Under the pieces are notes generated by a model that saw only the letters and a list, made by a program, of their open reading frames with translations, was not told the DNA's origin and did not search any database. 64,000 bases of DNA from the NCBI RefSeq assembly GCF_018137965.1, contig NZ_CP073100.1, positions 2,491,754 through 2,555,753 on the forward strand, read 5' to 3'. Below, one piece after another: positions 2,543-50,343 of this stretch (position 1 is the first letter of the stretch; each line of letters opens with the position of its first letter). Position numbers and translations under genes: made by a program. This DNA is from Luteolibacter ambystomatis (GTDB taxonomy: Bacteria; Verrucomicrobiota; Verrucomicrobiia; Verrucomicrobiales; Akkermansiaceae).

Positions 2543-2600
2543 CAGGTCGAAAGCGGAGCTTTGACTACATTGTAGGGGGAAGCTCCGCTTTCCCTCTGTG
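2543..2600. repeat. single dispersed palindromic repeat (family 1)
   Basis: A GTCGAAAGCGGAGCTTT arm (form A) is followed head-on by GTAGGGGGAAGCTCCGC (form B, reverse complement). The two arms are largely complementary and could form a long hairpin. The same arms recur at 37987-38100 and 41703-41814, so this is a dispersed family and not a local accident. Confidence 0.75.
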
Positions 2601-2653
2601 GCGGTGGACGTCACTTGTCCTCCAAGCTCCCTCGCTTTCATTCCGGCCGCGTT

Positions 2654-3071
2654 CAGATCGAAAGCGGAGCTTTCGACTACGTTGGGGTCACTCGTCCTTC
2701 AGGCTCCCTCCCCTTCGTTCCAGCCGCGTTCAGATCGAAAGCGGAGCTTTCGACTACATTGGCGTCACCCGTCCTTCAGGCTCCCTCCCTTTCATTCCGG
2801 CTACGCTCAGATCGAAAGCGGAGCTTTCGACTACATTGGGGTCACTCGTCCTTCAGGCTCCCTCCCTTTCATTCCGGCCGCGTTCAGATCGAAAGCGGAG
2901 CTTTCGACTACGTTGGGGTCACTCGTCCTTCAGGCTCCCTCCCCTTCGTTCCAGCCGCGTTCAGATCGAAAGCGGAGCTTTCGACTACATTGGGGTCACT
3001 CGTCCTTCAGGCTCCCTCCCTTTCATTCCGGCCGCGCTCAGATCGAAAGCGGAGCTTTCAACTACATTGCC
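2654..3071. repeat. tandem array of 77-bp units carrying the family-1 palindrome
   Basis: Units start with CAGATCGAAAGC at 2654, 2731, 2808, 2885, 2962 and 3039, an exact 77-bp spacing. There are five full units and a sixth cut after about 33 bases. Each contains the small hairpin GAAAGCGGAGCTTTC followed by a spacer with GTCACTCGTCCTTCAGG. Units differ at only a few positions. The array ends directly at the stop codon of the PDZ gene and fills the gap between two convergent genes. The units are too long and too uniform, with no variable spacers, to be a CRISPR array. Frames open through it are artefacts of the period. Confidence 0.92.
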
Positions 3072-7856: not shown

Positions 7857-9248
7857 ATGAATTCCCCTTCCCGCCCGACCTCTCCTTCCCGCCTCGCGCT
7901 CGCGCTGCTGCTGGCCGTTTGTCCGGTGCTGTCCGCTCAGACGGTTTCCACCACCACGCCTCCGGCGGGGACGGCACCCGTGCGGGAGCTGTATCTCCCG
8001 GCGAAGATCGGCCACGTGCCGGAGGGCAATGACTGGCAGAATCCGGAGAGCGTGTTCTGCTTCAAGCGCAGCAAGTCCACGGAGTATTTCGCCATGTTCT
8101 GGGCGAAGGAATACGGGGACGACCCGATGGCGAACCCGGACTCGCGGCAGCGCTTCAACGTGGACGAGGTGCTGAAGGAGGCGGACCGCTACTACGACTA
8201 CTACGTGAAGACGCTGAAGTGGTTCAACCCGGCGACGGCGGCGGCGGCGAAGTACAAGATGCTCATCTTCGTGATCCCGGATGACAAGAGCGGCACGGCG
8301 TGGGGCGGCGAGACGGAGGGGAAGATCGGCACGTTCTGGACTCCGGCCACGCGCATCAACAAGGGCCCGTATGGCGTGGTGGCGCACGAGCTGGGGCATT
8401 CGTTCCAGTCCGTGATCCGTGCGGATGGAGCGCAGCGGTTCACCACCGGGGAGATGAGCGAGATGACGTCCCAGTACATGCTGTGGCAGGTGCTGCCGGA
8501 ATGGCAGACCTTCGAGAACTACCACCTGAAGGCGTTCATGAAGGACACGCATCTGGCCTTCATGCATCCGGACAACCAGTATCACACGTGCTATCCGCTG
8601 GAGTACTGGTCGTTCCGGCACGGTCCGGAGTTCATCGGCAGGATGTGGCGGGAGGTGCTGAAGGGCGAGGACCCGGTGATGACCTACAAGCGGCTCACGG
8701 GGATCGACCAGGAGCGCTTCAACAACGAGATGTACGATGCGTGCCGTAGATTCGTGACGTGGGACCTGCCGCGGATCGAAAAGGTGGCGGCGCGCTACGC
8801 GGACCAGCACGTGACCTCGCTCAAGCCGGTGGCGGACGGAGCCTATCAGATCGCCGCGGAGAAGGTGCCGCAGAACTACGGCTACAATGCGATCGGACTG
8901 AAGGTGCCCGCGGGAGAAGCGAAAGTGGCGGTGGACTTCAAGGGCCTTGCCGGAGCGGAGGGTTTCAGCCAGGAGCACGTGGACAAGGCCGGGTGGCGCT
9001 ATGGCTTCCTGGCGCACAAGGAGGATGGGACGCGCGTTTACAGCGGGATCTTCTCGAAGGCGGAAGGCGGCGCCACCTTCACGGTGCCCGCGGGGACGAG
9101 GAACCTGTGGCTGGTGGTGATGGGCGCGCCCACGGAACACTGGACGCATCCGCGCGCGCCACGCGGGAAGGAAGGCGTGCCCTACGAGCAGTGGCCGTAC
9201 CAGTTCCGCCTCACCGGCACGGCCCCGGTGGACGGGATCGTGCATTGA
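7857..9248 (+). CDS. secreted DUF6055-like protein with an HELGH motif
   Basis: A 463-residue protein with a signal peptide (MNSPSRPTSPSRLALALLLAVCPVLSAQ). It starts its main domain with a region typical of DUF6055: SEHFxxxW-type sequence (here STEYFAMFWAKEYGDDP), a YYDYYVKTLKWFNP helix and YKMLIFVIPDD. GVVAHELGHSFQ at about 177-188 is a zinc-metallopeptidase-like HExGH motif, and a downstream GEMSEMTSQYMLW helix carries a possible third-ligand glutamate. The C-terminal 130 residues are beta-rich (FSQEHVDKAGWRYGFLAHKEDG, then FTVPAGTRNLWLVVMGAP). It is probably an exported hydrolase or carbohydrate-associated protein; protease activity is not proven. Its promoter must lie in the upstream 450-base gap. 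Confidence 0.7.
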   Translation: MNSPSRPTSPSRLALALLLAVCPVLSAQTVSTTTPPAGTAPVRELYLPAKIGHVPEGNDWQNPESVFCFKRSKSTEYFAMFWAKEYGDDPMANPDSRQRFNVDEVLKEADRYYDYYVKTLKWFNPATAAAAKYKMLIFVIPDDKSGTAWGGETEGKIGTFWTPATRINKGPYGVVAHELGHSFQSVIRADGAQRFTTGEMSEMTSQYMLWQVLPEWQTFENYHLKAFMKDTHLAFMHPDNQYHTCYPLEYWSFRHGPEFIGRMWREVLKGEDPVMTYKRLTGIDQERFNNEMYDACRRFVTWDLPRIEKVAARYADQHVTSLKPVADGAYQIAAEKVPQNYGYNAIGLKVPAGEAKVAVDFKGLAGAEGFSQEHVDKAGWRYGFLAHKEDGTRVYSGIFSKAEGGATFTVPAGTRNLWLVVMGAPTEHWTHPRAPRGKEGVPYEQWPYQFRLTGTAPVDGIVH

Positions 9249-9255
9249 GAGCCAT

Positions 9256-9393
9256 GTAGCCGGAGTCGTGAGACTTCGGGCTGGGAAGAGCCGCGGAGTT
9301 CCCCGCAGGTGCGGTCCGTCAGCGGCCAATCCAAGGCAATGTCACGGGGTTGGGGTGGAATCACCCTGCCCGAAGTCTTACGACTCCGGCTAC
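9256..9393. repeat. family-2 dispersed inverted repeat, copy A
   Basis: The left arm (9256-9285, starting GTAGCCGGAGTCGTGAGACT) and right arm (9364-9393, ending GACTCCGGCTAC) are reverse complements at 28 of 30 positions, separated by 78 bases. The element begins eight bases after a stop codon. A second copy lies at 26754-26898 with a different inner sequence but equally matched arms. The remaining 150 bases to the next gene show no further feature. Confidence 0.85.
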
Positions 9394-25809: not shown

Positions 25810-26676
25810 ATGGCGCTGGCTTCCTACGAACGGCTGATGACGACCTCCCCCCACCTGCTGTGGGCGACGGAGCGGAGCTGGGATGCGGCGGAGGCACGGG
25901 AGCGGGAGCACCGTTACGAGGGCGGGGAAAACACCTGCTGGTTCGTGCAGGAAGGCCGGGCACGGGTGACGATGGAGGATGGTACGATGAGTGACGTACT
26001 AGAAGGACAGTGGCTCTTCCTGAGGCCGGGGCTGCGGCACCAGGAGTTCGGCGGGCCGTTCCGGTTTCTCTCGATCGGGCTGCGCTGGCGTTGGCCGAAC
26101 GGGCTGCACCTTTTCGAGAAAGGACTGCCACGCGTGGCGGCGGAGAACGAGGTGCCGGAATTGCAGCCAGCGGCGCGGGATGTGATCGCGCGCACGGCGG
26201 CGCTGGTGCCGCGGCATCACCACTATCTCACGCTGGGGGAGACGAGTCTGGCGGCGTTCGGGCGGCTGGCGGCGCTGGCGGGGGATTGGGCCGCAGCATT
26301 CGCGGTAGCCATGGAGCGGCTGGAGATCGGCGCGGAGTTGCTGGAGGACTTTGATCCGCGGCTCGAGGCCATGCACCGGATGCTGGGCACTCTACCGCTG
26401 GACAAGGAACTGCCCGCGGCTGTGATCGAGGCGGCCACGGGATTGTCCGAGCGGCAGTTGAACCGCCTCTCACGCGCCGCCGGAGGACGCACGCTGCGGG
26501 AGGCCTTTGAAAACCGCCGCTACGAATACGCGCGGGAGGCGCTGCTGGAACCGGGCGGACGGGTGAAGACGGTGGCCAGCGCGCTGGGGTTCACGGATCT
26601 GGCGTTGTTCAATAGATGGTTCCGGAGACGGTCCGGGAGAAATCCGCGGGAGGTGCGGGGAAAGATGCAGTCGTGA
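25810..26676 (+). CDS. AraC-family transcriptional regulator
   Basis: A 288-residue protein. The N-terminal about 120 residues form a cupin-like sensor (FVQEGRARVTMEDG, DVLEGQWLFLRPGLRHQEFGGPF). The C-terminal AraC double helix-turn-helix covers about 195-285, with ATGLSERQLNRLSRAAGG and TVASALGFTDLALFNRWFRRRSGRNPREVR, the canonical GF-D-x-x-x-FNRxFRR signature. It is divergent from the FAD oxidoreductase and most likely controls it in response to a sugar or related ligand. Confidence 0.9.
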   Translation: MALASYERLMTTSPHLLWATERSWDAAEAREREHRYEGGENTCWFVQEGRARVTMEDGTMSDVLEGQWLFLRPGLRHQEFGGPFRFLSIGLRWRWPNGLHLFEKGLPRVAAENEVPELQPAARDVIARTAALVPRHHHYLTLGETSLAAFGRLAALAGDWAAAFAVAMERLEIGAELLEDFDPRLEAMHRMLGTLPLDKELPAAVIEAATGLSERQLNRLSRAAGGRTLREAFENRRYEYAREALLEPGGRVKTVASALGFTDLALFNRWFRRRSGRNPREVRGKMQS

Positions 26677-26710: not shown

Positions 26711-26753
26711 AAAGAGGAGGCCCACGGATTGCACGGGTTCGGGTCTTCTCTTC

Positions 26754-26898
26754 GTAGCCGGAGTGGTGACACTTCGGGCTGGGAGGATTTCCAATGTCGT
26801 GACGGGAATATTTTCCCACCGATGCCCATCCATGGCGGAGTGGTCCTGCAACTTTCTTCGCGGGCTCACCCAGCCCGAAGTGTCACCACTCCGGCTAC
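26754..26898. repeat. family-2 dispersed inverted repeat, copy B
   Basis: The 30-base arms (26754-26783, starting GTAGCCGGAGTGGTGACACT, and 26869-26898, ending CACTCCGGCTAC) are perfect reverse complements with an 85-base spacer. Where copy A has TCGTGAGAC in the left arm, this copy has TGGTGACAC, and the right arm changes to match. It fills the gap between two convergent genes. Confidence 0.88.
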
Positions 26899-26911
26899 AA
26901 AGAGAGAGGAT

Positions 26912-28105
26912 CTATTTCCTCTCGTTCCAGTAGATGACGAGATTCTTTGTCGCGCGGCCGGAGGCGATGAGGTCGGGCTTCCCATCGCCGTTGAGATCGG
27001 CGGCTTTGAGGTCCTCGCAGGCCATGCCGTTGTCATCAATCACGGCGTGGCGGGTCCAGGTGCTGCCATCTTCCGCCGCGGGGATATAGAGCCGCAGGCC
27101 GACCTTCTTGTCCGCTCCGGCGGGTTCGCGCCAACCGGCCACGACCTGATCGTAGCCGGTGCCGAGGAAATCGGCGGCGGCCAGCGCGTGACCCTGGTTG
27201 AGGGTGTCATCGAGCAGCACACGCTTCTGCGACCAGAGACCGGTGGTGGATTCCGGATTCACCGCGACCTGGTTGCCGTGCATCGGCTCGATGGTGGCGA
27301 TGAAGCGCTTGCCATCCGGCAGCTTGCCAAGGCGAACCTCGCCGGCGGGTTTTTCCGTGAGACGCCCGGCCTGCCATGGGGTGTCCCCTGCCCCATCGCT
27401 TTTCCGCAGGAGGTGGACGCCTTCCTTGCATGCGACCAGCAGCGAATCGCCCGCGGTGCCAGGCCAGGCAACCGGAGTGAAATTGTGCGCCATGTGGAAC
27501 TGGTCATTGAGCAGGAAGGTGGACCATGGCTCCGCGGCTTCCTTGCCGGGACGATAGCCGAGGAAGCGGATGCCATCGCCCGCGCCATTGACATTGCCAC
27601 AGCCATGCAGTGGCAGCACGGCGAGGAAGGGATGACTTTCCGGGTCCCGCACCCATTGCATGCGGTGGACGGTGGGTTCGCGGTGTTGCTCGTGCGCGGT
27701 CCATGGCGCGGTGCGGTCTTCGCCGGGGATGAGAGTGAACACCGCGCCGCTGTTGCGGGTATCCCCGGGATTCCACTCGCCACCAATGGCCACCTCCGCG
27801 CCGCCCTTGGAGCCGATGTTCGCGGCGGCGATGCAGACGTGATCCTGCTTCGTCAGCGGACCGGTGAAGCGGTGCTTCTTCCAATCCGGTGCCTGGTACC
27901 AGACCGTTTCCTTGGAATCGACCAGCGCGATGTCCAGCTTGCCATCGCCATCAATGTCCGCGATCGCGAGGCCGTAGCCGATGCCGAGCCGGTCATCAAT
28001 GGTCTGCGCGCGGAACACCGCAGGTTGCGCCTCCGGCAGAGCGTGGAGCGACCCGGCGGCGGCCAGAAGGCAGGCGTAAAGGGCGGAGGTGCGGAAACGC
28101 GGCAT
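26912..28105 (-). CDS. exported FG-GAP/VCBS-repeat protein
   Basis: A 397-residue protein with a signal peptide (MPRFRTSALYACLLAAAGSLHA). FG-GAP-type blades have calcium-loop motifs, clearest in LAIADIDGDGKLDIALVDS near the N-terminus and LKAADLNGDGKPDLIASGR near the C-terminus, with weaker blades between (HALAAADFLGTGYDQVVAG). This predicts a seven-bladed beta-propeller of integrin type. Such proteins bind ligands or sugars outside the cell; no enzyme residues are visible. Transcribed toward the AraC gene. Confidence 0.8.
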   Translation of the reverse strand: MPRFRTSALYACLLAAAGSLHALPEAQPAVFRAQTIDDRLGIGYGLAIADIDGDGKLDIALVDSKETVWYQAPDWKKHRFTGPLTKQDHVCIAAANIGSKGGAEVAIGGEWNPGDTRNSGAVFTLIPGEDRTAPWTAHEQHREPTVHRMQWVRDPESHPFLAVLPLHGCGNVNGAGDGIRFLGYRPGKEAAEPWSTFLLNDQFHMAHNFTPVAWPGTAGDSLLVACKEGVHLLRKSDGAGDTPWQAGRLTEKPAGEVRLGKLPDGKRFIATIEPMHGNQVAVNPESTTGLWSQKRVLLDDTLNQGHALAAADFLGTGYDQVVAGWREPAGADKKVGLRLYIPAAEDGSTWTRHAVIDDNGMACEDLKAADLNGDGKPDLIASGRATKNLVIYWNERK

Positions 28106-37986: not shown

Positions 37987-38100
37987 TGTAGTCGGAAGCT
38001 CCGCTTTCGAATGGTCTCCGCCAGCTCCGGTTGGCGGCGGCCAGTGGGGCCAAACGATCCCCGATCCCGCAGAGGGAAAGCTGGAGCTTCCCCCTACATT
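37987..38100. repeat. family-1 dispersed palindromic repeat, two-arm copy
   Basis: The left arm, TTGTAGTCGGAAGCTCCGCT, and right arm, GGAAAGCTGGAGCTTCCCCC, are imperfect inverted repeats separated by about 55 bases. They are the same arms as at 2543 and 41703. The element begins eight bases after the stop of the glycosidase-like gene. Confidence 0.8.
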
Positions 38101-41702: not shown

Positions 41703-41814
41703 ATGTAGGGGGAAGCTCCGCTTTCCCTCTTTTGGGATCGGACCCGCCTCGTACCGTCAGCCTGTTTTTCCATCCGGGCTCTCCCGGATCGAAAGCGGAG
41801 CTTTCGACTACATT
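41703..41814. repeat. family-1 dispersed palindromic repeat, best two-arm copy
   Basis: The left arm ATGTAGGGGGAAGCTCCGCT (form B) and right arm GATCGAAAGCGGAGCTTTCG (form A), about 65 bases apart, are imperfect reverse complements. This copy shows the full element: form B, spacer, form A. It lies between mqo and the YdeI-like gene. Confidence 0.82.
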
Positions 41815-50206: not shown

Positions 50207-50343
50207 CAGCTTGTCAGTTCTTGGATCGCACAGGATGGGCGATCGTTAACAAAAAAAACCACAAAAACCCAAAAAAACCATTAACCTCGGGCGAAGCCGG
50301 AGTGATGAGCGGTTGTACTTCTCCACTCGTTCAACTCCCCGCC

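Follow-up and report, generated by a model that had tools for sequence, protein, structure and literature searches.

The inverted repeats at 9256-9393 (copy A) and 26754-26898 (copy B) of the window, the 64,000-nucleotide stretch of the Luteolibacter ambystomatis genome analysed here, belong to a real family of GTAG-tagged REPs arranged in head-to-head doublets (REPINs), each REP being composed of the GTAG foot, an 8-bp stem, a GTRA loop and a GCNGGG tail. We consider it highly probable that these doublets are non-autonomous elements spread by a cognate RAYT encoded at genome positions 992413-993024, which would recognize each of the two REPs in its folded, single-stranded form by the foot, the stem-loop and the tail. 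The pairing of a REPIN family with its own RAYT, very likely in the present case, is of a kind already known, while this REPIN family and this RAYT clade are apparently undescribed.

Copies A and B in the window

The left REP core of copy A (9256-9279, plus strand) comprises GTAG with the stem CCGGAGTC, the loop GTGA and the returning stem GACTTCGG, and its 30-nt arm folds as single-stranded DNA with -6.3 kcal/mol (z -2.99). It is followed by GCTGGG (9280-9285, plus strand), the consensus tail of the 91 strict copies described below, and by a spacer of 78 nt (9286-9363) that separates the two inverted arms (9256-9285 and 9364-9393, 93% complementary). The right REP core (9370-9393, minus strand) carries the loop GTAA and folds with z -3.37. 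Copy B was found to have the same layout: its left core (26754-26777, plus strand) folds as CCGGAGTG, GTGA and CACTTCGG, with the 8th pair turned to G-C, a spacer of 85 nt (26784-26868) lies between the 30-nt arms (26754-26783 and 26869-26898), and the fold of the right core (26875-26898, minus strand) has the same stem as the left one. The inverted-repeat search gave arms of 37 nt with 97% complementarity for copy B, in which the repeat runs 7 nt past the GTAG feet (26747-26753 and 26899-26905); copy A has no such extension. With up to 3 mismatches, GTAGCCGGAGTGGTGACAC occurs at exactly 4 places in the window, which are the arms of the two copies, and at none in 100 shuffles. An Rfam search of the window returned no match.

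Both copies are intergenic, as had been claimed from the sequence alone. Copy A starts 7 nt past the stop of a DUF6055 gene (7857-9248), and copy B lies between the 3' ends of convergent genes coding for an HTH_18 regulator (25810-26676, plus strand) and an FG-GAP protein (26912-28105, minus strand). The sequence-only reading had further described a shared arm and a shared spacing; the arm is indeed common to both copies, whereas the spacing is similar and not identical, since the spacers differ by 7 nt. It had also placed a possible half copy at 50293. This site has GAAG instead of GTAG, lacks the 3' half of the stem, folds no better than shuffled sequence (z -0.56) and falls outside the 4 places matched by GTAGCCGGAGTGGTGACAC; it is not a copy. 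Its 13-nt core occurs at 5 places in the window (0.62 expected), 3 of which are true copies.

REP copies across the genome

In the 5.32-Mb genome, the pattern GTAGCYGNNNNNGNRANNNNNCRG, in which GTAGCYG, G.RA and CRG were fixed and the five inner stem positions left free, was detected at 118 places, the reversed-pattern control giving 0; positions are given for the first 100 among these 118. Roughly 23 of the 118 belong to a second subfamily with the stem CCGGTGGC. The repeats thus follow what defines a REP, a palindrome of 20-40 nt with GTAG as its 5' foot, present in many copies per genome. Copies A and B are intergenic and the REPs at the RAYT lie beside its gene, these being the copies whose location was inspected.

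Single REPs are common in the genome, and 41 head-to-head doublets with at most 1 mismatch in each REP (median length 141 bp) identify the family as REPINs. These 41 were retained from 43 after removal of a double-foot palindrome and of a doublet containing a REP with 2 mismatches. Tail-to-tail pairs within 260 bp were absent from the wider copy set. For 15 of the 41 doublets, the spacer is similar to that of another doublet (E<=1e-3). The double-foot palindrome itself, GTAG...CTAC at genome position 1954497 (L031:1501), looks like a doublet whose centre has been deleted. Composite arrays at genome positions 2391452-2392186 and 2396805-2397239 (L096) have REPs of the two subfamilies alternating in similar succession and may represent nested insertions or a duplicated unit.

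Compensatory change within the single REP

The strict set comprises 91 copies (62 distinct sequences) from 265 kb cut around the matches. We report covariation from this set alone, because in a larger set of 122 copies pairing had served as a selection criterion for those with 2 mismatches. Although the search had left these letters free, 445 of the 455 inner stem cells in the strict copies are paired. Pair 2 is C-G in 58 copies and T-A in 33, with no mismatch, and pair 8 is C-G in 73, G-C in 15 and unpaired in 3, the alternatives at the two pairs combining in varying ways. Among the 62 distinct REPs, 98.2% of the cells are paired versus 87.7% after shuffling, and 51 cells carry a double change versus 14.4, a value that 0 of 500 shuffles reached; these shuffles ignore the kinship of copies. 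Sliding the partner column by 1-3 positions abolished the pairing signal. Collecting all copies had been proposed as the way to check the two-copy comparison, and the strict copies bear out compensatory change.

Which hairpin is being compensated is revealed by the doublets. Stems differ between the two REPs in 35 of the 41, and at the differing stem positions pairing is retained within the REP in 131 of 142 cases versus 72 of 142 from arm to arm. Doublets with uniform stems number 6 of 43, and random re-pairing gives a mean of 7.6. The arms of a doublet therefore vary independently: the compensated unit is the single 24-nt REP hairpin, as pairing holds within the REP and not between the arms, and the long hairpin of 138-145 nt is not the unit that is kept. 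The letters quoted for the inner bases, TCGTGAGAC in copy A and TGGTGACAC in copy B, were correct, and they constitute the 8th base pair of the small hairpin, C-G in copy A and G-C in copy B, in both arms. What had been taken for an opposite arm changing to match is this pair inside each arm. With the pair flipped in both arms, copy B gives the appearance of arm-to-arm covariation, and the membership of both copies among the six uniform doublets explains the misreading. The sequence-only reading rightly took the paired change as a sign that a folded hairpin is acted upon but mistook the object, which is each REP and not the long arms.

An alternative explanation would have the long inverted repeat of 138-145 nt acting as one RNA or DNA hairpin, for instance as a stabilizer of mRNA 3' ends, a terminator or a cruciform, with selection producing covariation of the arms. 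In its favour, the arms match in copies A and B, both of which are located at gene 3' ends and form strong folds over their full length (z -8.1 and -9.7). The prevalence of doublets with unlike stems and the weak arm-to-arm pairing nevertheless make this explanation improbable. Neither does the terminator suggested by the earlier reading fit the sites: defined as a G+C-rich hairpin followed by a T-tract, no site resembling an intrinsic terminator is found at copy A, and near copy B there are two on the minus strand, neither of them built by the arms. Use of the 3'-end position of a REPIN by the host is possible as a by-product.

Mixed doublets with C and T at pair 2 amount to 25 of 41 versus 19.9 expected, and with p ~0.09 no preference for heterodimers is claimed here. 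Heterodimers are described as frequent in many REP families in the accessible text of PMC3733652. In the REPINs of SBW25, compensatory changes are reported along the long hairpin too (PMC3116915, consulted in part), so that both levels may count elsewhere.

A candidate cognate RAYT

The gene at genome positions 992413-993024 (L019:752-1363) codes for a protein of 203 aa that contains the HUH and single-tyrosine motifs of a RAYT in the forms DHAH and YIAHNP. It sits between two doublets of the present REPIN family, at 992223/992363 and 993021/993162, and ends in a TAG stop codon that also belongs to the GTAG foot of the REP that follows. This gene was found by tblastn with another RAYT of the same genome, the match falling between the two doublets; the search of its own genome with PF01797 missed it. 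The protein scored 40.7 bits (E 2e-10) against NCBIfam NF047646, REP-associated tyrosine transposase (cut-off 80), and 12.8 bits against Pfam PF01797, Y1_Tnp (cut-off 23). Staying below both cut-offs, it has to be regarded as a divergent, RAYT-like member. A four-protein alignment places L at the tryptophan of the W-motif, and a comparison with solved structures gave no match. REP copies cluster at the gene: 18 of 115, its own flanking ones counted, lie within 50 kb, versus 2.2 expected for an even distribution. Judged by its motifs and surroundings, this RAYT is the likely cognate transposase of the REPIN family.

The doublets flanking this gene also bear on the reading of the repeats as MITE-like terminal inverted repeats of a DDE-type insertion sequence, or as inverted repeats arisen by chance. 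Inverted ends of 30 nt around a centre of 78-85 nt resemble a MITE. Each end, however, is itself a GTAG-tagged palindrome and the two ends are often unlike; single REPs are common, a RAYT lies between two doublets, and the reversed-pattern control was 0. We regard this reading as most improbable.

For the REPIN family and its RAYT, the likely course of events is taken from the enzymes of E. coli and Stenotrophomonas, as far as the accessible part of PMC8266576 describes them. The RAYT would bind the folded single-stranded REP via the GTAG foot and the stem-loop; its tyrosine would cut next to the REP, and the doublet would be excised or copied. Cutting and movement on single-stranded DNA are here inferred by analogy with TnpA-REP of E. 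coli, and the REPIN family is probably mobile. Recognition of each folded REP by the enzyme would keep the stem by compensation and leave its letters free to drift, and the two REPs of a doublet would not need to match.

Known GTAG-tagged REPs and REPINs with RAYTs, namely those of P. fluorescens SBW25 (PMC3116915) and the families GTAG-1 to GTAG-24 (PMC3733652), share with our family, according to the accessible text of both sources, the GTAG tag, a stem of 6-9 bp, a short loop, head-to-head doublets with variable spacers, heterodimers, compensatory stem changes and a transposase gene flanked by its own REPs. Unlike in those systems, the RAYT found here falls under the Pfam and NCBIfam cut-offs. 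The stem CYGRAGTS, the GTRA loop and the GCNGGG tail are not met in the same text, a distinction drawn from text descriptions, so that the family may equal a listed one, e.g. one of those of O. terrae. A literature search of titles and the beginnings of abstracts, with most subscription journals outside its scope, returned nothing on this REP family. With TnpA-REP of class 2 (8 subclasses; Quentin et al. 2018, PMC6006769, accessible part), the RAYT has in common the HUH and Y..NP motifs and the nearness of REPs on both sides; it differs in having DHAH at the HUH motif and a W-motif devoid of W.

RAYT homologues in related genomes

Of 260 genomes surveyed in the family, 16 gave a match to the RAYT at E<=1e-6, and in 10 the match was strong. 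GTAG-type palindromes adjoin the gene at all 12 full-length strong homologue loci, a count that leaves out the truncated L277 and L287 and weak matches (E ~1e-7). The strict GTAG scan found REPs at 8 of the 12; at the other four, inspection of all hairpins, a looser criterion without its own null, revealed GTAGG (three) or GTAGG together with GTCGG (one) and a 7-bp stem. Other tags gave 0 or 1 in the strict scan; the exception, TAGG (31), mostly reflects GTAGG shifted by one base. The loop is GTGA/GTRA at 9 of the 12 loci and TGC at three. Stem letters vary by species; every one of these loci has the foot, and most have a G-rich tail.

The present REP type was detected in 2 of the 260 genomes, G000 (92 places) and G050 (7), both of which carry a RAYT of the same clade. 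Eight further genomes combine a strong RAYT match with the absence of this REP type, which would be expected if each had its own REP and does not constitute proof. No transposase was found beside the REP copies of G050 at 1452256/1453729. The same genome contains at 3212548-3213682 (L099) a tandem array of GTAG GGTCATCTC GCC GAGATGACC palindromes, repeated every 162 bp; the palindrome is found again flanking a RAYT-like frame, interrupted by an in-frame stop, at 5452414.

Further possible REP systems of the genome

About 35 kb before the window, a RAYT of 255 aa (genome 2456198-2456965, L048:3699-4463) scored 74.1 bits against NF047646 (cut-off 80) and is flanked by GTAG TCGAAAGC TCC GCTTTCGA palindromes, the other repeat family of the window. 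That family was observed in the window at 2572-3065, 37988-38097 and 41705-41811, with the partner GGGGAAGC, and includes a 77-bp tandem array.

A third enzyme, the IS200-type TnpA at genome positions 2407883-2408314, has the subclass 1.2 motifs of Table 1 in PMC6006769 (accessible part) in the forms DHVH, WQ and YIANQEEHH; the second subfamily, GTAG CCGGTGGC GNNA GCCACCGG, flanks it, with four in tandem. The copies upstream of the gene stand ~143 bp apart (region 2406853-2408391, L047:3854-5392). This TnpA was our first idea for the mover of the doublets and was demoted once the RAYT between two doublets was found. Its bracketing by a related subfamily and the presence of 11 of 115 copies of the main family within 25 kb of it are consistent with such a role. 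The flanking REPs, however, have another stem and no GCNGGG tail, and the same palindrome brackets TnpA homologues in G023, G041 and G020, with a variant in G050, whereas the main family, tail included, flanks the RAYT on both sides. Hence movement of the main family by TnpA and not by the RAYT has little probability.

According to the accessible part of PMC6006769, subclass 1.2 enzymes, characterized by DH[IV]H, WQ and Y...Q..HH, occur mostly in Cyanobacteria and Bacteroidetes, are entered as 'no' for REPs in Table 1 and have neither typical IS ends nor REPs. Among 153 TnpA homologues, we found DHxH in 153, WQ in 152 and Y...Q..HH in 149. Contrary to Table 1, bracketing palindromes occur here, and the records concerned bear the names Verrucomicrobia, Planctomycetes, Acidobacteria and others. 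The bracket was tested on 142 deduplicated homologue loci from genus genomes and named records with flanks of at least 150 nt, scoring an upstream palindrome that returns inverted downstream within 300 nt at a similarity of at least 0.85, with no tag assumed. Brackets were present at 56 of the 142 loci; when downstream flanks were swapped 200 times, 3.9 loci qualified on average and 11 at most. The remaining 86 loci, together with many brackets that have no [TC]AG foot, e.g. GCACCCCGGCAGGGGTGC, mean that the rule is not universal. Among all 64 trinucleotides, the leading feet were AGC (28 of 150), TAG (17) and CAG (8), AGC being for the most part these feet shifted inward by one base. On a quick enzyme tree, the palindrome type changed 8 times over 26 rows and 8 types (shuffled mean 16.3, minimum 12).

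This palindrome group is also dispersed, in the genome studied as elsewhere: its pattern was matched in 21 of the 73 genomes of the genus, with 25 places in G000, 33 in G050 and 51 in G058, reversed controls being 0 in all three. At genome positions 4128609-4129031 (L094), a TnpA copy resembling subclass 1.2 has kept its bracket of matching palindromes in spite of an in-frame TGA. We lean towards the view that subclass 1.2 is a second, separate lineage of REP-mobilizing enzymes, whose GTAG, TTAG or CCAG palindrome brackets track the enzyme tree and are dispersed as doublets in several genomes; the genome studied would then harbour at least three REP systems, two of class 2 and one of class 1. 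This association is the part that a specialist would not expect, and the literature search, most subscription journals lying outside its scope, gave nothing on REPs of subclass 1.2 enzymes.

Implications

The puzzle of covarying hairpins in L. ambystomatis is resolved as a REPIN family together with its likely enzyme, and it illustrates how a comparison between two uniform copies may give a false impression of arm-to-arm covariation. As the REPtron transposase is missed by standard models, such systems may be under-counted. An association of subclass 1.2 enzymes with REPs would revise the published 'no REPs' statement, and the natural pairs of enzyme and REP offer a handle on how tag and stem are recognized by enzymes of this type.
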